A stretch of DNA of 64,000 nt from Rhodoplanes sp. Z2-YC6860 (GTDB lineage Bacteria; Pseudomonadota; Alphaproteobacteria; Rhizobiales; Xanthobacteraceae): assembly GCF_001579845.1 (NCBI RefSeq), contig NZ_CP007440.1:1678001-1742000 (forward strand). Reading direction: 5' to 3'. Each line of letters begins with the position of its first letter. Position 1 is the first letter of the stretch. The position numbers were made by a program, and so were the translations under genes. The notes under the pieces were generated by a model. It saw only the letters and a list, made by a program, of their open reading frames with translations, made no database searches and was not told the DNA's origin. Positions 45,692 through 58,327 of the stretch are shown in pieces.

Positions 45692-45828
45692 AAATCCTCC
45701 TGCCGCCCGGAAGCCTTCGACGAATCTAGCAATCCAAAACGATCATGTCCGATTCGTGCCGTTAATGCGGCAGATCGGACGCGATGTGAAGCCCTGTCGA
45801 AAACCGGCATTGTGGCCGGTGGATTGGC

Positions 45829-46146
45829 TCAGAGCCCCAGGCTTCGGACCAGGGCCGCAATGGCCGTGCCGGCCAGCATGGCGGCGAGGGCGCTGCGCGT
45901 GAACGCCATCACCAGCGCGGCCGTGCCGACCGCGATCCAGATGCGCGGTCCCGCCGTGGCCGTGCTGGACCAGGTGCTCGCGGCAACGATCGAGATCAGC
46001 ACCGACACCGACATATATTTGAGAAAGGCTTCGATGCGCGGTGTGATGGCGACGGTGGACATGATCCAGACGCCGCCGAGCCGCGTCGCCATCGTGACGA
46101 TCGCCAGAAGGGTGACGGCGGCGATCGCCGCAACGGTGTCAACCAT
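45829..46146 (-). CDS. azlD: AzlD-family branched-chain amino acid exporter small subunit
   Basis: A 105-residue membrane protein with three to four hydrophobic helices (VAAIAAVTLLAIVTMATRLGG in part; YMSVSVLISIVAAS; IWIAVGTAALVMAF; LAAMLAGTAIAALV). ATG 46146 lies inside the last codons of azlC (8-base overlap), the standard arrangement of the two-subunit AzlCD system that exports branched-chain amino acids or analogues. Confidence 0.88.
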   Translation of the reverse strand: MVDTVAAIAAVTLLAIVTMATRLGGVWIMSTVAITPRIEAFLKYMSVSVLISIVAASTWSSTATAGPRIWIAVGTAALVMAFTRSALAAMLAGTAIAALVRSLGL

Positions 46147-46876
46147 GGCGCCACACGCCCACAGCGCCTCCCGCGAGCGCGCCGGCGACGATGTGCCAGC
46201 CCGGCGGCAGCAGATAGGTGCCGGCGATTGCGACGGTCGCGGCGGCGATCCATGGCAACAGGTCGGCGGCCCCCTTGAATTGCCCGACAATCACCGCGGT
46301 GAAATAGGCCACCATCACGGCGTCGAAACCGAAGCGCGACACGTCGCCCAGCAGCGAGCCCGCCAAGGCGCCGGCGGCCGAGCTCGCGATCCACATGATC
46401 CACATGACGAGACCGCTGCCGAACAGCACGCCCGCGTCCATCTCGCCGCGATCCTGAGCCGCCATGGTGTAGGCAAAGTTCGCGTCGTTGATCAGACACA
46501 GCGCAGCGAACCGTCGGAAAATGGGAATCCGCAGCAGCCATGGCGCGAGCGCCGCCCCGAGCAGGATGTGGCGCGCATTGACCGCGAGGACCGTCAGCGC
46601 GAGCGTCGCCAGCGGCAGCGGCGCGTGCCAGAGGTCCAGCGCTGCGAACTGCGACGCGCCGGCGAAGATCGCGATGCTCATGAAGATGCTGATGCCCGGC
46701 GCGATGCCCTTGGCCGAGGCGGCAACGCCGAAGGCCAGGCCGAACGGGATCACGAATGCCGCAACGGGCGCAATCTCGATCGCGCCGCGCCGCACGCCGT
46801 GCGCGGTGAAACGCGGGTGTCGGAGTCTGTGTGAATCGCCCGGTTGGTCGGCCATGTCGTCCGGCATGGACGTCAT
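46139..46876 (-). CDS. azlC: AzlC-family branched-chain amino acid exporter large subunit
   Basis: A 245-residue inner-membrane protein. The AzlC core starts near residue 35 (PFGLAFGVAASAKGI), continues with FAGASQFAALDLW, LAVNARHILLGAALAPWL (in part) and LINDANFAYTM, and has about six hydrophobic segments. ATG 46876 or ATG 46855 may start it; neither has a strong ribosome-binding site. It overlaps azlD and forms a complex with it. No regulator is adjacent. Confidence 0.92.
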   Translation of the reverse strand: MTSMPDDMADQPGDSHRLRHPRFTAHGVRRGAIEIAPVAAFVIPFGLAFGVAASAKGIAPGISIFMSIAIFAGASQFAALDLWHAPLPLATLALTVLAVNARHILLGAALAPWLLRIPIFRRFAALCLINDANFAYTMAAQDRGEMDAGVLFGSGLVMWIMWIASSAAGALAGSLLGDVSRFGFDAVMVAYFTAVIVGQFKGAADLLPWIAAATVAIAGTYLLPPGWHIVAGALAGGAVGVWRHG

Positions 46877-46925
46877 TTGAGGCAGCGCGGCCGATCAATC
46901 AAGCCGCGGCTGTGCTGTGGACGAT

Positions 46926-47771
46926 CTAATCCCGGCCGTTCGTCGCGCCCTTGTCGGTCCACTTCGGCGGAAGTCCGAGGTTGTCGCCGACCATGCCGAC
47001 CAGACCGGGCGCTCGTCCAAAGGACTCGCAGGCCGGATACTTCGGGGCGCCGCCGAGAAGGGCCTTCAGGCGCGCGTGCGACGGCATCGATGGCGGCGCA
47101 CCGAATGGCGTCGCGCCTTTGACCAGCAGCATGCTGAAGTCGCCGCCGAAGTCGGCCGCCAGGCTGTAGGCATCGGCCTCTTCCGCGACTCGTCCGGAGC
47201 CCATGAATGCAGTGGCGCCACGCCCCCAGATCATTGCGGCTTTCTGATTGCCCTGCGGATCGCGCGCCTCGGCTTCCAGCGACAGGCTGCCGAGCCCGAT
47301 CGGGATGCGCGGCACGGGGACAGGCACGCCGGGCAGCAGCACGGACTTGGCGACCGATGCGCCTTTGGAAAAGCCGACCGCGATCGGGTCGGTCGGATTC
47401 ACGTGCGTCACGATGGCGTGGATCGTGAGATCGGCGGGCTGCGACGGGTCGACCACCTCGAAGCGCTCGCTCAGGCCTGTGCACAAGCTTCGGTCGACGG
47501 CGTTGGTGACGAGATTGCGCTGCTCTTCGGTGAAGGGCGTGGGCGCCGCGCTTGAAAATGTGGTCGGCACGATGGCCACGGTTTTTGCCGCGAGCACATC
47601 GTCCTTGTGCACATTCAGCAGCGTGCGGGTGAGCAGCCCATCCGAGGGCTTCAGATTGTCATAGGAACGAAGCGACCCGGCACGGTCCAGCGGCGCGCTC
47701 GCGCAGCCGCCGGCCAACAAGCTCAGCGACACCACCGCTGACCAGAGCCGCAGCGTTCCGGGGCGCTGCAT
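46926..47771 (-). CDS. Hypothetical lipoprotein, DUF3313-like
   Basis: A 281-residue predicted lipoprotein. ATG 47771 is chosen because it places the signal at the N-terminus, with lipobox LAGGC at about residue 23; an ATG at 47849 adds 26 residues. The chain has the DUF3313-like layout: a YDNLKPSDG start, VAIVPTTFSS, a central VDRSLCTGLSERFEVVDP (in part) and GLGSLSLEAEARDPQG. Function unknown. It is divergent from a TetR gene, and the palindrome at 47899 lies in its upstream region, so TetR control is possible. Confidence 0.6.
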   Translation of the reverse strand: MQRPGTLRLWSAVVSLSLLAGGCASAPLDRAGSLRSYDNLKPSDGLLTRTLLNVHKDDVLAAKTVAIVPTTFSSAAPTPFTEEQRNLVTNAVDRSLCTGLSERFEVVDPSQPADLTIHAIVTHVNPTDPIAVGFSKGASVAKSVLLPGVPVPVPRIPIGLGSLSLEAEARDPQGNQKAAMIWGRGATAFMGSGRVAEEADAYSLAADFGGDFSMLLVKGATPFGAPPSMPSHARLKALLGGAPKYPACESFGRAPGLVGMVGDNLGLPPKWTDKGATNGRD

Positions 47772-47898
47772 GCGAGCGCCGGGCGGCGAACGCCACGGCA
47801 GATGAACCTGATGACAGGCAGGAGCCGGGATCGTCGCCATTGCACACACTGTCGCCCCGCGCTTCGATCGAAGCGCATTCGGTGAGGAAGCTCGATAA

Positions 47899-47913
47899 TC
47901 GCACTGAGTGTAA
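47899..47913. promoter_or_regulatory. Candidate TetR operator, distal copy
   Basis: TCGCACTGAGTGTAA matches the proximal palindrome TTACACTGGGTGTAA at 12 of 15 positions. It lies 128 bases before the divergent lipoprotein start. Confidence 0.5.
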
Positions 47914-48007
47914 AAATATTTGGTGGCTGCTTTATGGCGGACCTGCGCGGCCGATGCGGTCGCGGTTGGCTTGGGCTCCCCTGGCCGTCGCGCTCATCAA
48001 GTCATTG

Positions 48008-48022
48008 TTACACTGGGTGTAA
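48008..48022. promoter_or_regulatory. Candidate TetR operator, proximal copy
   Basis: TTACAC-TGG-GTGTAA is a perfect 6+3+6 inverted repeat ending 30 bases before the TetR start codon. It resembles operators of AcrR-like TetR proteins. Confidence 0.6.
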
Positions 48023-48052
48023 TTCTCGACGGAATTATGCGAGAACCGCGTC

Positions 48053-48679
48053 ATGCGTGAGGCCACCTCCAGGCATGTCACCCCCGGGCATGCCGCACCC
48101 AGGCCGGAAGGACTGCGCGAGCGGAAGCGGCGCGAGACGTTTCAGCGGATCGCCGATGCCGGCCTGCGCCTGTTTCTCGCCAAGGGCTACGAGGCGACGA
48201 CGCTCGACGAGATCGCTGCTGCCGCCGGCATTTCCCGCAGGACGTTCTTTTATTATTTCGAGAGCAAGGATGATGTCCTCCTCGCCCAATTGACCGGCTA
48301 TGAGGAGATCATCAAAGAGTCGATTCTTGAAAAATCGCCGGCCGAGGCGCCGATCGATGTTGCGTGCCATGCGCTGCAGAAGGCCGCGGCCCGGTTTCCG
48401 GCGTCCCAGTCGCTGGCATTCGCGCGGCTGATGCGTGAACGCCAGGCGCTGCGCGCACGGCAGCACGGAATTGGTTTTCTGCGGTTCGAGCAGGTTCTGT
48501 ACGAGACGCTGCGTGAGTTGTGGCCGGCAAAAGGGCGCCGCGACCGCTTGCGTCTGGTCGCGATGGCGGCGATGTGCGCGATGCGCCTCGCCAGCGATAC
48601 CTGGATCGAGGAGGACGGCAAGCGTCCGCTCTCGAAATACATCCAAGACGCCTTCAGAGATTTGAAATCCGAAATTTGA
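48053..48679 (+). CDS. TetR/AcrR-family transcriptional regulator
   Basis: A 208-residue repressor. The HTH is residues 24-75: RKRRETFQRIADAGLRLFLAKGY (in part), TTLDEIAAAAGISRRTFFYYFESKDDVL (in part), with the canonical FFYYF recognition helix. The C-terminal ligand domain is of the AcrR C-17 type. Two copies of a TTACAC-type palindrome precede it, fitting autorepression and control of the divergent lipoprotein. The Bug-LLM-hydrolase genes start about 100 bases downstream on the same strand. Confidence 0.94.
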   Translation: MREATSRHVTPGHAAPRPEGLRERKRRETFQRIADAGLRLFLAKGYEATTLDEIAAAAGISRRTFFYYFESKDDVLLAQLTGYEEIIKESILEKSPAEAPIDVACHALQKAAARFPASQSLAFARLMRERQALRARQHGIGFLRFEQVLYETLRELWPAKGRRDRLRLVAMAAMCAMRLASDTWIEEDGKRPLSKYIQDAFRDLKSEI

Positions 48680-48786
48680 TCGCGGTGGCCCGCCGCGCGG
48701 GGTGCGGCCTGAAGCGCGCTTCCGATTTTGCGCGACCAGCATACAATCACGGCAACGACACAGAAGCCTGTCAGGGAGGATAAGCC

Positions 48787-49764
48787 ATGCTGCATCGGTT
48801 GATCGGCGTCATCGCGCTTGCGTTTGTTGGGGTGTGCGGCTTGTCGGCCCATGCCGGCGCGCAGACTTACCCGGCGCGGCCCGTCACCATCGTGGTGCCG
48901 AATGCCGCGGGCGGCGGCACCGACACGGTGGCGCGGCTGATCGCCGATCAGCTCTCGAAACAGATGAACCAGAGTTTCGTCGTCGAAAACAAGACTGGCG
49001 CCGGCATGGTGGTGGGAACGCTCGCCGTCGCGAAGGCTGCGCCTGACGGCTACATGCTGCTGACCGGATTGAACGGCAATCTGACCGTGAATCCCAGCCT
49101 CTACGCGAAGCTTCCTTACGATGCGGTGGCCGATTTCAGGCCCGTCGCCATGCTGGCGGAATACCCGTTCATGGTCGTCGTGAACAACGATCTGCCGGTG
49201 CACTCGATCAAAGAACTGATCGCCTATCTCAAGGCCAATGCCGGCAAGGTCGACTATGCGTCGGCCGGCAACGGCACGGGTCAGCATCTGGCGGCCGAGC
49301 TGTTCAAGATGATGACCGGCACCGAGATGACTCACGTCGCCTATCGCGGCGCGCAGCCGGCTTATCAGGACGTGATCTCCGGCCGCGTGCCGGTGTTCTT
49401 CGACAACATGTCGACCGCCATGAGTCTCGCCCAGGGCGGCAAGGTGCGGGCCCTGGCCGTCACCTCGAAGACGCGCTCGTCGCTGATGCCGGATGTCCCG
49501 ACGATGGAGGAGGCCGGTCTGCCGGGTTACGAGTACCACACCTGGTTCGGTCTCTGGGCGCCGAAGGCAACGCCCGACGCCATTGTCGAAAAGCTCAACG
49601 CCGAAGTGAAGAAGGCCTTGGCGGAGCCGTCCGTCCAGCAGCGCATCGCCGCCCAGGCCGGTGCTCCCTCGCACATGGAGCTGAAGGACATCGATCCTTT
49701 CGTGAAGGCCGAGATCGAGAAGTGGGCCGCGGTCGTCAAGCGCGCCGGCATCAAGGTGGAATGA
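48787..49764 (+). CDS. Bug-family tripartite tricarboxylate receptor
   Basis: A 325-residue periplasmic receptor. GGGAGG lies ten bases before the ATG. Signal peptide ends near HAGAQTYP. Bug blocks: YPARPVTIVVPNAAGGGTD (in part), VENKTGAGM, KAAPDGYML, KLPYDAVADFRPV, SSLMPDVPTMEEAGLPG (in part) and LWAPKATPD. It leads a probable operon with an LLM monooxygenase and an alpha/beta hydrolase, mirroring the LLM/Bug pairing at 12.7-14.9 kb. No permease genes are present. Confidence 0.93.
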   Translation: MLHRLIGVIALAFVGVCGLSAHAGAQTYPARPVTIVVPNAAGGGTDTVARLIADQLSKQMNQSFVVENKTGAGMVVGTLAVAKAAPDGYMLLTGLNGNLTVNPSLYAKLPYDAVADFRPVAMLAEYPFMVVVNNDLPVHSIKELIAYLKANAGKVDYASAGNGTGQHLAAELFKMMTGTEMTHVAYRGAQPAYQDVISGRVPVFFDNMSTAMSLAQGGKVRALAVTSKTRSSLMPDVPTMEEAGLPGYEYHTWFGLWAPKATPDAIVEKLNAEVKKALAEPSVQQRIAAQAGAPSHMELKDIDPFVKAEIEKWAAVVKRAGIKVE

Positions 49765-49890
49765 TCGGTGGGACGTCGCAGCTATGACAAGTCGCGCTGA
49801 CTGCGATGCGCGCGGCGTGGCGCCTGCGCGTTGAGCCGTGGCGCACGGCCACGTAGCTTACCAAACAACAGCCGCATCCAAGGAGCGTCC

Positions 49891-51120
49891 ATGAAAGTCT
49901 GCATGTTCCACCTGATGCCGTATCGGGATCTGCCTGCCGACTTCGAGGACCGCTACCAGACCGCCTATGTCGATCCGCTGTGGTTCGATGTCGCCGACGC
50001 CGACAAGGTGGGCGAATACTACAACGACACGCTGGATGAGATTCTGCACGCGGCCTCGGCCGGGTTCCACGGCGTCTGCACCAACCAGCACCATCAGAAC
50101 GCCTACGGCTTCATGGCCAATCCGAGCCTGATGGGCTCGGTGCTGGCGCGGGCGACCCGCGGCCAGAACGTCGCGATCATCCAGCTTGGCTCGACGCTGC
50201 CTTCGACCAGCCCGCCGACCCGCATCGCCGAGGAATATGCGATGCTCGACTGTATCAGCGGCGGCCGGCTGATCGCGGGATTTCCGACCGGCCTGCCGAC
50301 CGATGCCGTGATCTCCAACGGCGTCGTTCCGATCGAGCAGCGCGAGCGCTACCGCGAGGCGCTGAGCCTCGTGCTGAAGGCGTGGTCGGCGAAGGACTTC
50401 TTCGCCTGGAACGGCAAGCATTATCAGCTCGGCAAGGTGAACCTGTGGCCGCGGCCGATCCAGCAGCCGCATCCGCCGATCTGGATTCCGGGCTCCGGCA
50501 TTTCATCGACGGCGGAGTACGTGGTCAGCAACGACTACTGCTTCTGCCATCTCAGCTATCACGGCGCCAAGAACGCCACCTACACGGCCGACCGCTACTG
50601 GGAACTGGCCGCGAAGAAAGGCCGCGACGACAATCCGTATCGCTACACGTTTCTGCAGCTGATCGGCGTCGCGGACACCGACGCCGAGGCCGAAGAGCTC
50701 TACGCGCCGCACGTCGAGTATTTCTTCCGCAAGCTGCTGCACACGCCGTCGCACTATCAGCAAATTCCGGGCTGTCTCGAATACCCGGCGCTGGTGCAGG
50801 CGCTCACCAACAATCCGCGCGGCGGCTTCAACCTGCGCGAAATGCGGGCGCGCGATTTCTACGACAACGGCTTCGTGATCGTCGGCAGCGCGAAGACCGT
50901 GCGCGATCAGCTGGTCGAGCACATGAAGCGCCTCCGTGTCGGCCACCTGCTGACGCTGCTGCACTTCGGCTCGATGCCGACGGATCTCTGCAAGCGCAAC
51001 ATCGACCTGTTCGCGCGTGACGTGATGCCGTCGCTGCAGGGCCTGTGGAGCGACTACGAGGATCGCTGGTGGCCCGAACGTCTCAAGGCCTCCTCGCGCG
51101 CCATGGCCGCGGCCGAGTAG
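49891..51120 (+). CDS. LLM class flavin-dependent oxidoreductase (luciferase-like monooxygenase)
   Basis: A 409-residue FMN-dependent TIM-barrel enzyme. ATG 49891 follows AAGGAG. Family segments: NQHHQNAYGFMANPSLMGS (in part) near residue 68, IIQLGSTLPSTSPPTRIAEE (in part), MLDCISGGRLIAGFPTGLP (in part), WNGKHYQLG, PHPPIWIPGSGI and FVIVGSAKTVRDQL. It is about 45 residues longer than the one at 13.8 kb and belongs to another branch. Its neighbour is an alpha/beta hydrolase, as in pathways where a monooxygenase opens a ring or carbonyl and a hydrolase cleaves the product. Substrate unknown. Confidence 0.9.
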   Translation: MKVCMFHLMPYRDLPADFEDRYQTAYVDPLWFDVADADKVGEYYNDTLDEILHAASAGFHGVCTNQHHQNAYGFMANPSLMGSVLARATRGQNVAIIQLGSTLPSTSPPTRIAEEYAMLDCISGGRLIAGFPTGLPTDAVISNGVVPIEQRERYREALSLVLKAWSAKDFFAWNGKHYQLGKVNLWPRPIQQPHPPIWIPGSGISSTAEYVVSNDYCFCHLSYHGAKNATYTADRYWELAAKKGRDDNPYRYTFLQLIGVADTDAEAEELYAPHVEYFFRKLLHTPSHYQQIPGCLEYPALVQALTNNPRGGFNLREMRARDFYDNGFVIVGSAKTVRDQLVEHMKRLRVGHLLTLLHFGSMPTDLCKRNIDLFARDVMPSLQGLWSDYEDRWWPERLKASSRAMAAAE

Positions 51121-51135
51121 CGGCGGAGAACAGTC

Positions 51136-51936
51136 ATGGCGTCTTCCGAAACGCGCAGGCTCAAGCTCTGGCAGGGCCGGATCGAAACCGATGTCGAGAT
51201 CGCCGGCAGCGGCCCGCCGCTGCTTTATCTGCACGGGCCTTGGGGGCTGGCGCCGGACCGGGCCTTTGCGGCGCGGCTTGCCAGCCGGCACACCGTCTAT
51301 GCCCCGCGGTTTCCCGGCACGACGCCGGGCGACTCCGAAGGAGCGCACGCGCTCGATAGCTGGCTCGATCTTGCCGTCTACCACGCCGAGTTGCTCGATG
51401 CGCTGAAGCTCGATGCGCCCATCGTCGTCGGCCATTCCTTTGGCGGGCTCCTTGCTGCTGAACTTGCAGCCGCGATGCCACGCTCGGCCGCGCGTTTGGT
51501 GCTGATCGATCCGGTCGGGCTTTGGCGGGACGATCTGCCGGTGAAGAACTGGATGATCCTGAGCGAGCGCGAGCGCAAAGCCACGCTGTTCGCCGATCCC
51601 GAGGGCGAAGCCGCGAAAAAGTTCTTCGCCGTGCCGGGCGATCCCGCCGGACGGGTCGACACGCTGTCCCAGTTGATCTGGTCGCAGGCCTGCACCGGCA
51701 AGTTCGTCTGGCCGTTGCCCGATCGCGGACTGAAGCACCGGATCCATCGCATCGCCGCGCCAACCCTGATCGTCTGGGGCAAGGCCGACCGTGTGATCGA
51801 CCCGGCCTATGCGCAGGAGTTCGCCAAGCGGATCGCCGGTGCGAAGCCGCTCATGATCGACAGCGCCGGACATCTGCCGCATCTCGAGAAGTTCGAGCTT
51901 GTGGCCAAAGCAATCCAGGAGTTTGCCGGCGGTTGA
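51136..51936 (+). CDS. Alpha/beta hydrolase
   Basis: A 266-residue hydrolase fold enzyme. Nucleophile elbow GHSFGG near residue 98 (serine), oxyanion region LYLHGPWG near residue 27, an aspartate in VWGKADRVIDP near residue 215 and the catalytic histidine in SAGHLPHLEKFE near residue 245. Substrate could be an ester, lactone or carbon-carbon bond of a ring-fission product. It starts 15 bases after the LLM gene with GGCGGAG before its ATG, so both are co-translated. Confidence 0.92.
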   Translation: MASSETRRLKLWQGRIETDVEIAGSGPPLLYLHGPWGLAPDRAFAARLASRHTVYAPRFPGTTPGDSEGAHALDSWLDLAVYHAELLDALKLDAPIVVGHSFGGLLAAELAAAMPRSAARLVLIDPVGLWRDDLPVKNWMILSERERKATLFADPEGEAAKKFFAVPGDPAGRVDTLSQLIWSQACTGKFVWPLPDRGLKHRIHRIAAPTLIVWGKADRVIDPAYAQEFAKRIAGAKPLMIDSAGHLPHLEKFELVAKAIQEFAGG

Positions 51937-52041
51937 ACAGAGCAACAAACCGCGTAAAGCGATCCAACGGGTGGAATGTATTATAGCGAGCACTGCGTCG
52001 GTCAGAAGGTGGACGAGCGACTGAAGAACAGGGGCCCCCTT

Positions 52042-52800
52042 ATGAAAATTCTTGCCATCGCAACATTCGCAACGCTGCTGGCCTGGCCTCACGCCGCCGC
52101 AGCCCAAATCAAGGTGCTGATGTCGGGCGGCTTCTCCGGCGCCTACGAGCAATTGTTGCCGGAGTTCGAGCGGACGAGCGGCATCAAGGTCACGACCGGA
52201 TCGGGCGCGTCACAGGGCACGGGGCCGCAGACGATCGGCGGGCAGCTCGCAAGTGGCAGCACGGCGGACGTGGTGATCCTGTCGAAGGAGGGCCTCGAGG
52301 AGCTGGTTGCCGCCAAACGGATTGCCACGGGTACAGAAGTGAACCTCGCGCGCGTCGGCTTGGGCGTGGCGGTCAAGGCGGGCACGCCAAAACCGAACGT
52401 CGGCACGGTCGAGGCGTTCAAGCAGGTGGTGTTGGCGGCGCGGACCGTCTCTGGCGCCAGCACGAGCGGCATCTGGCTGCAGAAGGAGCTCTTTCCGCGC
52501 CTTGGCATTGCCGACAAGCTCGACGTCAAGATCGTGCCGCGCGGCACCGGTGCGGTGGCCATGGTCGTCGACGGCAGCGCCGGCGTCGCGGTGATGCCGA
52601 TCAGCGAAATCATCACCGCCAAGGGCGTCGATCTCGCGGGAGCGCTCGCGCCGGAAATCCAGTTTCCCCAAGTGTTCGCCGCCGCGATCGTCGCCGGTTC
52701 GGGTCAGGCCGACAACGCCAGGCGATTGATTGCTTTCCTCTCCTCGCCGCAAGCCGCGGCGGCGATCACGAAGAGCGGAATGGAGCCGATCGGGCGCTAA
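52042..52800 (+). CDS. ModA-like extracellular solute-binding protein
   Basis: A 252-residue periplasmic protein. ATG 52042 gives signal peptide MKILAIATFATLLAW ending at AAAAQ. The fold is of the molybdate-binding ModA type: IKVLMSGGFSGAYEQLLPEFE (in part), GQLASGSTADVVILSKEGLEEL (in part), a GIWLQKELFPRLG helix and VAVMPISEI. No modBC genes follow, and such ModA-like orphans often bind organic or unknown anions. It lies 105 bases after the hydrolase and may be part of the same operon. Confidence 0.8.
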   Translation: MKILAIATFATLLAWPHAAAAQIKVLMSGGFSGAYEQLLPEFERTSGIKVTTGSGASQGTGPQTIGGQLASGSTADVVILSKEGLEELVAAKRIATGTEVNLARVGLGVAVKAGTPKPNVGTVEAFKQVVLAARTVSGASTSGIWLQKELFPRLGIADKLDVKIVPRGTGAVAMVVDGSAGVAVMPISEIITAKGVDLAGALAPEIQFPQVFAAAIVAGSGQADNARRLIAFLSSPQAAAAITKSGMEPIGR

Positions 52801-53143
52801 AGAGGCGAGCCCAGCCAATCATTGTCGTTTGATGCCGCGCCTCGGACTTGGTCGGCCAGATGAATGTCGGCCAGATGAATGTCGGCCAAGTGAATGTCGA
52901 CAGGTGAATAGAGTCTCATGCGCGGCGCACTCTCGAGTTGCGTGCCGGCGGAAAACCAGCTATCGAGGCGCCCCGCAACACCATTGCTTGGAGGCGACCA
53001 TGTTGACGACCGTGCGCTTCCCGGGTTCGACGCGCGACATTTGACGCGCTGCCCGGGATTGATCCCGGGGCGAAATCCTAAAGCCCTCATCTCAATCGAA
53101 TCTGCCTGCGGACCTCTTTGGTTCGCGCTGCCGAATTGTTGTC
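52801..53143. other. Intergenic region with a tandem repeat and a hairpin
   Basis: About 340 bases without a supported gene. It holds a 15-base tandem repeat (52851-52909) and a perfect short palindrome CCCGGGAT-TG-ATCCCGGG (53052-53069) that may be a terminator. ORFs here are short and lack family features. Confidence 0.5.
52851..52909 (+). repeat. Tandem 15-base repeat, four units
   Basis: Two exact units GTCGGCCAGATGAAT, a third with two changes (GTCGGCCAAGTGAAT) and a fourth, shortened unit GTCGACAGGTGAAT. Confidence 0.9.
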
Positions 53144-54274
53144 ATGACTTCGAATCTCTTGCGGGTCCCGTGCCGGGGCGCCGTGCGTTCCGACATGCTC
53201 GAACGTCAGCTCCGGCGATACCATCCGCGTTTCCAGGGCGCCGTGTGCGCGCTGGCGACGCGGCACTCGCGCGTCGCGGACCTCGCCACGAGCTTTCCTG
53301 CGCTGCTCTTCGCGCTCGCCGTTCCGCGGCCGGGGCTTGATGCTGCGCGCGCGTTGGCGCACGTGATCGATGGCCGCGCGCTCGCCGAGGTCGCGGCGGC
53401 GGCTGACGTGCCGATGTGGCTCCGAAAATTGCCGCCGGAGGCATTCGCACGTCCAATTCCGCGACTGCCTGACGGCGAGCTGTTTCGCCGGCATATCGCC
53501 AATCACCTGCCGCGCTCGCGCAAGCTTTCGCCGGCCTGGCTGCAGATCGTGGCGCGCGTCGCCGAGCTTGCGCACGAGCCCGCGGCGGTGTGGATCGCGC
53601 GCGAGTTTCTCCGCGAGCCCCGGCATGTGAATCCCGAGCGATTGCGGCTGGTCAGCCTCTGGTCGTGGTTCTCCAGTCAGCCCGCAACGCTCGGACATTA
53701 TCTGATCGACAAGCCGTGGACGCCGGATGTGCATATCGGTCCGGCCCTTGCGGCTGCCGACGATTGGCGAACGATGATCGACCTGCATGTCAACCTTGGC
53801 TATCGGCCGATCGCCGATATGTGGCTCAAGCCCGCTCGGGTGGCCGGTTACGACTTCCTGCCTTTGAGTTCGATTGTCGCGATCACCGATGAGGCGGTCG
53901 CCATGAGCAATTGCGTTCGCACTTACGGCAACCTGCTGGCGCGCAACCGCTCGCGTCTGTGGAGCGTCCAGCGGGATGGCGCGCGCGTCGCCACGCTGGA
54001 GCTTGGCTTCCGTTGTGGTGACCCGCTGCCGTGCATCGTTCAGCTCAAGGGTGCAGGAAATGCCTCGGCCTCGCGGGAGCTGTGGTGGGCGGCGCGCCAA
54101 TGGCTGAACACGCACGACTTCTCGCAGATCAACTTGGAGCGGCGCGCCTGCGACCGGAGACCGCTCGATCGCACCACATGGCTGTCGCTTTGGCGGCCGT
54201 ATTGGCTCGCCAAGCGGCGCCTCCCGGAATGGTTGCCGATCGCGCCGTCGCTCCGCGCGCTGAGTGCGCTGTGA
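53144..54274 (+). CDS. PcfJ-like protein
   Basis: A 376-residue protein. The C-terminal third carries the PcfJ pattern: MSNCVRTYGNLL near residue 256, then a strand LWSVQRDGARVATLELGF (in part), then PCIVQLKGAGNASAS. PcfJ was named from a conjugative enterococcal plasmid, but its biochemical role is unknown. The N-terminal two thirds are helical with many Arg and Leu and are not recognised. No conjugation genes are near. The start could be ATG 53144 or the later ATG 53195. The gene stands alone between a receptor gene and MaoC-like genes. Confidence 0.6.
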   Translation: MTSNLLRVPCRGAVRSDMLERQLRRYHPRFQGAVCALATRHSRVADLATSFPALLFALAVPRPGLDAARALAHVIDGRALAEVAAAADVPMWLRKLPPEAFARPIPRLPDGELFRRHIANHLPRSRKLSPAWLQIVARVAELAHEPAAVWIAREFLREPRHVNPERLRLVSLWSWFSSQPATLGHYLIDKPWTPDVHIGPALAAADDWRTMIDLHVNLGYRPIADMWLKPARVAGYDFLPLSSIVAITDEAVAMSNCVRTYGNLLARNRSRLWSVQRDGARVATLELGFRCGDPLPCIVQLKGAGNASASRELWWAARQWLNTHDFSQINLERRACDRRPLDRTTWLSLWRPYWLAKRRLPEWLPIAPSLRALSAL

Positions 54275-54424
54275 GCCGGCAGAATCAGCCGGGCGGTGGC
54301 GTCACGTTGCAGGATTTTGGATCAATGACGCACGTCCCTGTGATTTTCTGTGATGGCTCGCGGGTTGACGTGGTCGTGCCGCGGTTCTACCGAAGCACTT
54401 CACCCGCCGAGAGTTCAGCCTCCA

Positions 54425-54886
54425 GTGTCTCAGCTTCATTGGGAAGACTTCACGCCCGGCCGGGCCTTCGAGCACGGGCCGCGCCGCCTGCCGCGCGACG
54501 AGATGATCGCGTTCGCGGCCGAGTTCGACCCGCAGCCGATGCATCTCGACGAGGCTGCGGCGCGCGAGACCATGCTCGGCGGCCTCGCGGCGTCCGGCTG
54601 GTATGTCTGCTGCATCCTGATGCGGATGTGCGTCGATGCCTTCCTCGGCCAGTCCGCCTCGATGGGCGCGCCCGGCGTCGACGAGGTGAAACTGCTCCGC
54701 CCGGTCCGGCCGGACGACGAACTCATGTTTCGCGCCACCGTGCTCGAAACCCGCGCCTCGAAAAGCCGGCCGGACATGGGCCTGGTGCGCTTCGAGTTCG
54801 TGATGTCCGACATGCAGGGCCGCCAGGCCGTGGTGCTCATCACCTCGCTGATGATCGGCCGCCGGCAGAAGGGCGACGCCGCATGA
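54425..54886 (+). CDS. MaoC-like hotdog dehydratase, subunit 1
   Basis: A 153-residue hotdog-fold protein from GTG 54425; an upstream ATG at 54350 adds 25 residues with no family match. The hydratase-type segment is FAAEFDPQPMHLDEAAA near residue 35, with the Asp and His of R-specific enoyl-CoA hydratases. Later blocks are VDEVKLLRPVRPDDEL and FEFVMSDMQG. Its stop overlaps the second MaoC gene (ATGA), so both are probably subunits of one enzyme acting on a CoA thioester. The ribosome-binding site is weak. Confidence 0.78.
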   Translation: MSQLHWEDFTPGRAFEHGPRRLPRDEMIAFAAEFDPQPMHLDEAAARETMLGGLAASGWYVCCILMRMCVDAFLGQSASMGAPGVDEVKLLRPVRPDDELMFRATVLETRASKSRPDMGLVRFEFVMSDMQGRQAVVLITSLMIGRRQKGDAA

Positions 54887-56814: not shown

Positions 56815-57626
56815 TTAGACGCGCCACTTGTGAGGGCACGTTGGATCATAACGCATAGTGATTTTTATGCCCCGTTGCTTCGGTGAATTGTTCGGGCGGA
56901 CGATGCGAAGCGGCATTTCATACATTGCCTCTTTTATCCAACCTCTTAGTACCGCCTCATCGTAGACGCTGTGCAGCCGTTTAATATCGCGCTTCGCGCC
57001 CCACGGTAGATCGAGGTGCTTAACTCCATCCCTGTTTCCATCTTGGTGCCACTTGCGCACCCACCACGCCCATAAATCGGCTGCTTGCAGGGGCATAAAA
57101 TCTTGGTCGTTCCGGTATATTGGGCAGTCACAAATGAGCCGCCGAACGTCTGGCGGAAATGATTTGCGAAACCAGTCCCAACCTGAAATCACGCGTTCCT
57201 TTTCCGATTCGTTGTCAAAAATGAAATCGATGGGTTCGAATAAACCTAATCTGTGCTGCTCTTGCGCTAGGTTCTCGACGATCAATCTGGATGCGTACAA
57301 ATACGGGTTAATCAGGCTTTGATAATTGCTTATCGAGCGGCCTACGAACTCATCTACAATTCGAACCAGAGCGGCTTTGTCCATCACGCAGGATATCGCC
57401 GCCAATATGTTGTGCTCTTCGATGGTTCTGTAGAAAAAGGCGGCAACCTCTGGACGTTGAGCCATCTCATGCGTCTTGAACGCACGTAAGCCAGCAAGAT
57501 CGCGCTTTCTTTCCATGCGTCAGAGAATTTGGCCCACTCATCAGCCTGAGCAACATAGCCAGCAATGACCAAGGTATTTGGGTCGCCGGTGCCGCTACCG
57601 TCTACGTACGCTTGAAGCATGGCCAT
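56815..57626 (-). pseudogene. DUF3800 gene disrupted by a frameshift
   Basis: Two minus-strand frames together make one DUF3800 protein of about 270 residues. The first part (57626 or 57620 down to about 57515) reads MLQAYVDGSGTGDPNTLVIAG, in part, with the acidic VDGSG motif, and ends SDAWKE. The second (56815-57516) continues RKRDLAGLRAFKTHEMAQ (in part) to the end. The frame changes within GGAAAGAAAGCGC (minus strand, about 57510-57521), consistent with a one-base indel in a purine run. DUF3800 proteins are RNase H-like and often lie on mobile DNA. Composition is less GC-rich than surrounding genes. Confidence 0.75.
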
Positions 57627-58327
57627 CCATCGGGTGGCCGCCGCTGGGCGAGGGATGCCAATAACAAGACCCCCAGACTGCCGCACATGCCAACGCGGGG
57701 AGAGGGTAACCACGGCTCACCCGCCAGCCAATAATGGCAATTTGGTTGGGTACGATAAGTACAATATGCCGCAAGATTTGATACCGCCTTTCCCCATTGA
57801 CGCACAGTAATGTTCATGATAAGTTCTCATTTACCTCGCTCACTGAGGCCGTCATCTAGAGACGTCTGTTTGGCGGAGCGAGGTGTGGCGCCTGCAGGCG
57901 TGGCCCGTGACCACGTCCCAGGGTGCGATGCCATCGTCCGTCCCCGATGAGGGGGCCGCCTTCAGTGGCAGGGCGCGATCGGGTGAAGGGCCAAGGCAAC
58001 GCGGCCTTAGGGAAGGGTTCGTCCCGCACCGTCCGATCGAATCTCGAACGAGGGTATCGCGTTAAGTCGCCACCAGTGGAGCGCCGGAAGGCGTGCGGGC
58101 TTCGCAACAAGCCCGCGGCACCCTCGCAAGGGGTGTCGACTGAGACGTGGCGCCAACCGGCGCTCCGCTCCCTCATTCATGTGAGGGACAAGGAAGAATA
58201 GAGGCGCCAGCCCCGCGCCTGCTTTGAAGGGGCCGATGAATCACGCCTGCATGGATGTTTGGATGGCGCGCGAAAGCGTTGGCTGTTGGACAAGCGGAGC
58301 TGAGAAGCGCGCGGTGCTCTCCCCACG
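57627..58327. other. Decayed and non-coding tract between DUF3800 and the fourth palindromic repeat
   Basis: About 700 bases with no supported gene. The left 190 bases are AT-richer and include a minus-strand ORF start resembling a MazE-type antitoxin N-terminus (MNITVRQWGKA, 57785-57817). The right part (about 57850-58210) is GC-rich with several inverted repeats (such as CGCCTGCAGGCG), and its short ORFs lack credible family features. It could be a structured RNA or an old repeat; neither is shown. Confidence 0.4.

Follow-up and report, generated by a model that had tools for sequence, protein, structure and literature searches.

The gene at positions 53144 to 54274 (plus strand) of the window, the 64,000-nucleotide stretch of Rhodoplanes sp. 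Z2-YC6860 DNA analysed here, encodes a divergent PcfJ-like protein and is preceded by a short leader open reading frame (ORF) that is conserved together with it in its close relatives. It is tentatively proposed, with a little less than even confidence, that this PcfJ-like protein stands alone, carries a GNAT-like domain and is controlled by its leader ORF, and that its synthesis may follow translation status. The protein would have two parts: the ~220 N-terminal residues would form a helical region, and the PcfJ domain at the C-terminus would have a core topology like that of GNAT acyltransferases. It would work alone, with no obligate partner gene. The parts of the gene are as follows.

53144–54274 (+): PcfJ-like protein, 376 aa; ORF under purifying selection, PcfJ profile match at E=1.1e-14
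53144–53815 (+): residues 1-224, helical N-terminal region; pLDDT block means 90-98 from residue 21, alignment A3
53816–54136 (+): residues 225-331, PcfJ domain, predicted b1-a1-a2-b2-b3-b4-a3, GNAT-like; model, fold search, profiles
54170–54271 (+): residues 343-376, C-terminal tail LWRPYWLAKRR-P-WLP; alignments A1 and A3

Coding status and relation to PcfJ

The ORF has no alternative start codon upstream in frame. Nine full-length orthologues (375-376 aa, 59-73% identity) were compared with it, giving dN values of 0.17-0.31 and dS values of 0.70-1.12, and in all nine comparisons the third position was the most diverged site of the codon. Because of the dN/dS values and the third-position excess the plus strand is taken to be the coding strand, and by these sequence comparisons the ORF is a real gene under purifying selection. 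An antisense ORF (53087-54115) was considered and rejected; it has no Pfam match, and it matches relatives with far lower identity than the sense frame does (46-55% for five of the six listed, 38% for one). The species genome collection yielded two named relatives only, a Hyphomicrobiales metagenome bin and Bradyrhizobium sp. AT1 (Alphaproteobacteria), both with ~70% identity. Residues L47, P52, G77, P90, W92, R94, W132 and W150 of the N-terminal region are invariant among 30 sequences, and the C-terminal tail is common to those relatives that also have the leader ORF.

The first-pass annotation of this DNA had related the protein to PcfJ, and profile searches bear this out. A profile of 16 canonical PcfJ domains (A4), built without the query protein, matched the product of 53144-54274 in its own genome with E=1.1e-14 and 56.9 bits; the profile is not wholly independent, since 9/16 of its rows were found with the query protein or its close group and 7/16 came from a Pfam PcfJ search. 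Profile-profile alignment (hhalign) of the N-type group, to which the window protein belongs, with the canonical PcfJ group gave a probability of 99.8 over 94 columns. Furthermore, 17 of the 18 plasmid records matched by tblastn are annotated as PcfJ and one as hypothetical, at weak E-values of 2e-4 to 0.2. Taken at the level of sequence, homology of the C-terminal domain to PcfJ is practically certain.

The Pfam family PF14284 takes its name from the pheromone plasmid gene pcfJ. No match to it was obtained by hmmscan of the PcfJ-like protein; in a PF14284 search of the genome the protein was the sole match at E up to 1, with 12.3 bits against a cut-off of 25, and the nine orthologues scored 11.1-21.2 bits. 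Among 19 aligned proteins, 18 showed a PcfJ match at E up to 10, the exception being the window protein itself. The conserved HCV motif of PcfJ reads NCV in the window protein (N256), with the cysteine kept throughout. Because of the Pfam score below the cut-off and this change from HC to NC, the window protein is, judged by sequence, a member of a divergent PcfJ-like subfamily and not a curated member of PF14284. It shares with PF14284 a homologous C-terminal domain with the E...x-C-x3-Y, T and Q-x5-N motifs, and it differs from that family in its score, its NC, its WRPYWL tail, its chromosomal location and its leader ORF, as well as in the lack of plasmid or conjugation context among the scanned genes around it.

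PcfJ proteins are encoded on plasmids, in phages and on chromosomes. Among viral predicted proteins matched by Foldseek at E up to 0.001, 15 of 28 are named PcfJ-like and the others carry no informative name. A tblastn search of 50,697 phage records with the window protein matched one, at E 0.1, and one scan of viral contigs with a single canonical-type relative gave no match. On another contig (G1273:C58) three PcfJ-domain matches (L094, L101, L102) lie within 6 kb, at 2976, 4440 and 8764. In the available portions of two papers PcfJ figures as a table entry only (PMC3084688; PMC10782964). No function of PcfJ was found in the literature searched, subscription papers lying mostly outside the search, in agreement with the earlier description of the family as uncharacterised.

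The histidine of the PcfJ HC motif is present in 16/16 canonical domains and is replaced by asparagine in 27 of the 28 N-type sequences (histidine in one), which may reflect a loss of activity in the N-type proteins. The protein could thus be a catalytically dead PcfJ derivative that binds a ligand, RNA or protein and performs no transfer, the His to Asn change marking the loss. In line with this, E286, a frequent residue of the canonical domains (11 of 16), persists in 17 of the 28 N-type sequences, and eight of nine aligned orthologues have R, K or Q there; copies of the gene have also been lost or broken in several relatives. However, E250, C257 and N306 are invariant in all 28 N-type sequences and the gene is under purifying selection; moreover, any enzymatic activity of PcfJ in general is putative. 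We regard a dead derivative as rather unlikely.

Predicted fold and candidate activity

An AlphaFold2 model of the PcfJ-like protein, made with 30 sequences, has a mean pLDDT of 91.5 and a pTM of 0.85. Residues 11-218 are helical in this model, and residues 231-322 form, in order, strands, a helix, a helix, three strands and a helix. Comparison with the PDB by Foldseek gave no E-value below 0.06, and GNAT-fold proteins, among them LF-transferase and FemX, make up all 50 rows shown. With VIA-align all 50 rows have the GNAT fold, spanning residues 220-333 and mostly 225-331, at Z values of 5.6-7.9. Entries among the Foldseek and VIA-align rows that are unlabelled or named otherwise are presumed by us to have the GNAT fold.

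A second model was made of a canonical PcfJ protein from 17 sequences, none of them in common with the first alignment. Taken as a whole this model is poor (pLDDT 66), but the blocks from residue 271 on reach 84-95 and show the same order of elements. With VIA-align, GNAT-fold proteins match inside residues 270-386 in 47 of 50 rows (Z 4.7-6.9), and IsdH, YopO and Fis1, which fill the three remaining rows, match only helices outside the PcfJ domain. For both models the Z values stay below 8, a range for which the tool warns that they may mirror a common arrangement. For the second model the Foldseek results were weaker and mixed, the top entry being PatZ, a GNAT of E. coli (E 0.16), and for neither model was there a Foldseek match in the PDB at E 0.001 or better. 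The fold had been called unknown in the first-pass annotation; that the family is uncharacterised stands, and a GNAT-like topology is now predicted for its domain, which matches GNAT-fold proteins in both models.

Identity as a GNAT at the sequence level was also considered and rejected. Profile-profile comparison with nine GNATs of the same genome gave a probability of 0.1, in a comparison run with no remote-GNAT positive control, and sequence searches against solved structures returned chance-level matches only. In the first model a strand after a3 is absent and the GNAT strands b5-b7 are not seen. In GNATs the [QR]xxGx[GA] motif is the acyl-CoA loop before a3, and it lies farther from b4. 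The stretch QLKGAG (300-305) of the window protein literally fits this motif, at a site closer to b4 than the GNAT loop; among the 28 N-type sequences position 300 is E in seven and position 303 is A in nine. Because the Z values are below 8, strands are missing and the profile comparison was negative, we speak of a GNAT-like topology and do not file the domain as a GNAT. From the two models such a topology is probable. The likeness to the GNAT superfamily (RimL, PA3270, HAT1) lies in the predicted b1-a1-a2-b2-b3-b4-a3 order over ~105 residues, and it extends to GNAT-fold aminoacyl-tRNA transferases (LF-transferase, FemX, L-PGS); unlike in the superfamily, the later strands are missing in the first model, and sequence similarity of the window protein to GNATs was undetected.

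On the basis of this modelled topology we infer that the protein would most likely bind or transfer an acyl or aminoacyl group. A putative pocket would be formed by E250, N256-C257, Y261 and the b4-a3 loop (QxxGxxN306). Since no sequence similarity to GNATs was found, transferase activity itself is doubtful.

Distribution and genomic setting

The gene is chromosomal, lying on a single contig of 8.19 Mb. In 22 of 391 genomes of the family a match to it was found at E 0.001, and in 11 of these 22 at least 275 residues are kept. Two of these 11 copies are damaged (frameshifted in G364, truncated in G367). Of the remaining matches, those in G330 and G340 comprise approximately the C-terminal 60 residues, and nine are short stretches of remote similarity. 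When the order was searched with a close-group profile, 30 of 297 genomes matched, the window genome included, in 22 of 123 genera and for the most part over more than half of the length. None of the ten other genomes of the genus has the gene. Comparison with these congeners revealed the following feature.

45772–54402 (no strand): segment absent from congeners, with pcfJ at its right edge; boundaries within ~15-200 bp

In all nine alignable congeners the flanks of this segment (left of 45.77 kb and right of 54.4 kb) are adjacent, ~65-230 bp apart; the tenth (G118) gave no match. Since the flanks adjoin in 9/9, the window genome carries 8.6 kb that are missing at this place in its relatives. 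No mobility gene was recognised in the segment. A single transfer of the whole segment from one donor found no support, as its luciferase-hydrolase pair, TctC gene and solute-binding gene each match different genomes; in this comparison, which scored two candidates per genome, no listed genome matches the whole segment. Beyond the right edge, a 233-bp piece of the MaoC gene (54402-54634) recurs with 92% identity at C1:1451603-1451835, and that copy is situated within ~2 kb of an ORF that by eye resembles a serine recombinase. Further on, two overlapping frames on the minus strand (57384-57713 and 56815-57516) seem by eye to be one broken gene (56815-57713), which we take to be DUF3800-like; neither frame has a Pfam match.

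The descriptions of the gene as a stand-alone, chromosomal copy far from conjugation genes agree with what was found: no conserved partner gene was detected, and no mobility gene is present among the genes between 45.8 and 57.7 kb that were scanned with Pfam. The genes scanned between 45.8 and 56.6 kb encode AzlCD, DUF3313, TetR, TctC, luciferase-like, alpha/beta hydrolase, solute-binding, MaoC and MFS proteins. A defence or mobile partner was sought and rejected, the neighbours of homologues differing between clades and none of nine proteins (the window protein, three relatives and five neighbours) having a PADLOC match; no known defence gene was found in this survey. Ten neighbouring ORFs of homologues were scanned (amidohydrolase, SbmA, ClpB, DNA ligase, acyl-CoA dehydrogenase, HNH protein and others), and those identified are ordinary chromosomal genes. 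Among the neighbours listed, common ones occur only within subclades (L058/L059/L003; L060/L061/L062/L063/L066; L069/L072; L074/L076), and with the window neighbourhood the listed ones have in common only generic TctC relatives and one distant ORF on the MaoC side. The HNH protein is a 185-aa protein near pcfJ that is 99-100% identical in three loci (L003:9981-10535, L058:7082-7636, L059:5986-6540), with a weak IscB match far below the cut-off.

The gene might be a leftover of a mobile element, a phage or plasmid PcfJ gene that was spread by transfer and is decaying without a role in the host. Its patchy occurrence in the family and absence from the ten congeners, the segment missing in the nine alignable ones, the broken, truncated or remnant copies (G364, G367, G330, G340) and a deletion in a further genome (G333, see below) all fit such a history. 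Against it stand the purifying selection seen in 9/9 comparisons, the neighbours common within subclades and the retention of the leader with the gene, and we consider it quite improbable.

The leader ORF and its RNA structure

The region upstream of the gene contains the following features.

52851–52899 (+): 15-bp tandem repeat (15 bp x 3.3), ~245 bp upstream of the gene
52990–52994 (+): Shine-Dalgarno sequence GGAGG of the leader ORF; GGAGG in 11/12, AGAGG in L010
53000–53044 (+): leader ORF of 14 codons, MLTTVRFPGSTRDI followed by the stop codon; ATG, 14 codons and TGA kept in 12/12 sequences
53020–53057 (+): predicted hairpin A, first CCCGGG (53020-53025) with second (53052-53057), inner GCGCG/CGCGC; from folding and pairing
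53052–53069 (+): predicted hairpin B, second CCCGGG with third (53064-53069); from folding
53108–53126 (+): predicted hairpin C, GCGGACC/GGTTCGC, 17 nt before the start codon; from compensatory change

Comparison of the 400 bp upstream of the close orthologues revealed a block more conserved than its surroundings. The set compared comprised 12 sequences, that of the window gene and those of 11 close orthologues; two of the orthologues are broken genes. The leader ORF is present in all of them, its stop codon lying 87-100 nt before the start of the gene. Its peptide follows the pattern M-x4-R-[FL]-[PL]-G-S-x-[RH]-D-[IH]-stop, R12 being H in L010, and this pattern has a single match in the 8.19-Mb genome, the backward control having none. 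The main gene itself has a start codon without a recognisable Shine-Dalgarno sequence.

A covariance model of the leader (R1) was searched against the 391 family genomes. The 11 top matches (79.8-111.3 bits) are the loci on which the model was trained, each preceding a gene that keeps at least 275 residues; they fit by construction, and the informative part lies in the other matches. The next one, in G333 (47.2 bits), looks by eye like what a deletion has left of the pcfJ locus. This remnant (L153, G333:C79:49790-49862) keeps the leader start and the first pcfJ codons, and tblastn finds no more of the gene. Beyond the training loci and G333 there were no matches above 30.1 bits in the 391 genomes, and none of the 11 checked matches of at most 30.1 bits has a copy of the gene nearby; two of these seem by eye to be chance matches. 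In the genomes searched the leader is, by these model matches, confined to the PcfJ-like gene.

Six deeper relatives (L029-L034, 38-40% identity) with a WRPYWL-type tail have an ORF of 13-14 codons led by a Shine-Dalgarno sequence, 116-142 nt upstream; these ORFs differ in sequence and one begins with TTG. L035 has a 13-codon candidate. No leader-type ORF was found in 14 relatives with other tails, in a search leaving out TTG starts. The leader has no match in Rfam, and no report of it was found in the literature searched on rhizobial leader ORFs, for which subscription papers lay mostly outside the search.

Codons 6-14 are constrained about equally at their three positions (0.091, 0.114 and 0.104), and codons 2-5 vary most at third positions. 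Because of the equal constraint in codons 6-14, what is conserved appears to be the RNA or the position of the ribosome and not demonstrably the peptide. This constraint at the nucleotide level, and the fact that CCCGGG is palindromic as DNA, would also suit a DNA element, i.e. a promoter or operator with CCCGGG palindromes, in place of a translated leader. Against a DNA element speak the ATG, the exact 14-codon frame and the TGA in 12/12 sequences, preceded by GGAGG in 11 and AGAGG in one, the ORFs of 13-14 codons in the six deeper relatives despite their sequence difference, and the compensatory changes in hairpin C. It is considered quite improbable. The block is with high confidence a real cis element of the PcfJ-like gene, and translation of the leader ORF is probable.

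The tandem repeat mentioned in the first-pass annotation as preceding the gene does exist; the leader ORF and the hairpins separate it from the gene. It could be assigned no role and was set aside, since it precedes the conserved block and since the genome contains the 314-bp upstream region only once. No sigma-70-type promoter was found upstream and no terminator-like site for an intrinsic terminator in the leader.

Hairpin A contains the stop codon of the leader ORF in its loop; its predicted energy is -17.1 to -24.4 kcal/mol in 12/12 sequences and 98.6% of its outer cells are paired. Hairpin B (-5.3 to -15.5 kcal/mol in the 12 sequences) excludes the outer stem of hairpin A, and an alternative A/B hairpin switch is thus predicted. 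Compensatory changes were found in 3/4 pairs of hairpin C, in 1/6 of hairpin B and in none of hairpin A. The covariation is modest, the observed values being reached by 0-8 of 500 shuffles in a comparison in which related sequences can beat shuffles without structure, and the folding energy of the whole leader is unremarkable (z -1.5).

The proposed reading would combine these elements as follows. Expression would be set by the mRNA leader of the gene itself. Ribosomes would translate the 14-codon leader, the last codons and stop of which lie inside hairpin A, and the position of the ribosome would decide between backward (A) and forward (B) pairing of the middle CCCGGG. The choice between A and B would then set read-through or translation of the main gene. 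Responsiveness of the protein to translation status, e.g. to starvation or ribosome-targeting antibiotics, would follow from this ribosome-position-dependent pairing. In a wider and more speculative hypothesis, which we think unlikely, the PcfJ domains of plasmids, phages and chromosomes would all belong to the GNAT-fold acyl- or aminoacyl-transferases, as a highly divergent branch; the alphaproteobacterial ones would have been domesticated as a transferase that is induced in translation stress, via the leader ORF, when ribosomes stall. The predicted fold class, the partnerless chromosomal branch and the conserved leader together make PcfJ function testable; the leader, an RNA element without Rfam counterpart, and its hairpins offer the first testable handle on the PcfJ-like family.

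By analogy, the leader can be likened to attenuators whose short translated ORF serves as a readout of translation. One of these is the toiL uORF of E. coli topAI-yjhQ, a short ORF led by a Shine-Dalgarno sequence and associated with RNA structure, which is proposed in the available part of the source to be a translation-stress sensor (PMC12121999). The window leader is likewise a short, Shine-Dalgarno-led upstream ORF with predicted RNA structure. Unlike the window leader, toiL is described there as pairing with the topAI start region (PMC12121999); for the leader studied here pairing with the start site varies from 0.00 to 0.58 and is not conserved, and a toiL-like sequestration of the start codon was rejected. 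Another case is the uORF leader of S. meliloti duf1127-1, which is also from the Hyphomicrobiales and has no intrinsic terminator, and of which, according to the accessible part of the report, the RNA and not the peptide sequence matters (PMC12218461). The window leader shares with it the order and the lack of an intrinsic terminator, and differs in the gene that it precedes and in its CCCGGG hairpins, which that part of the report does not mention (PMC12218461).
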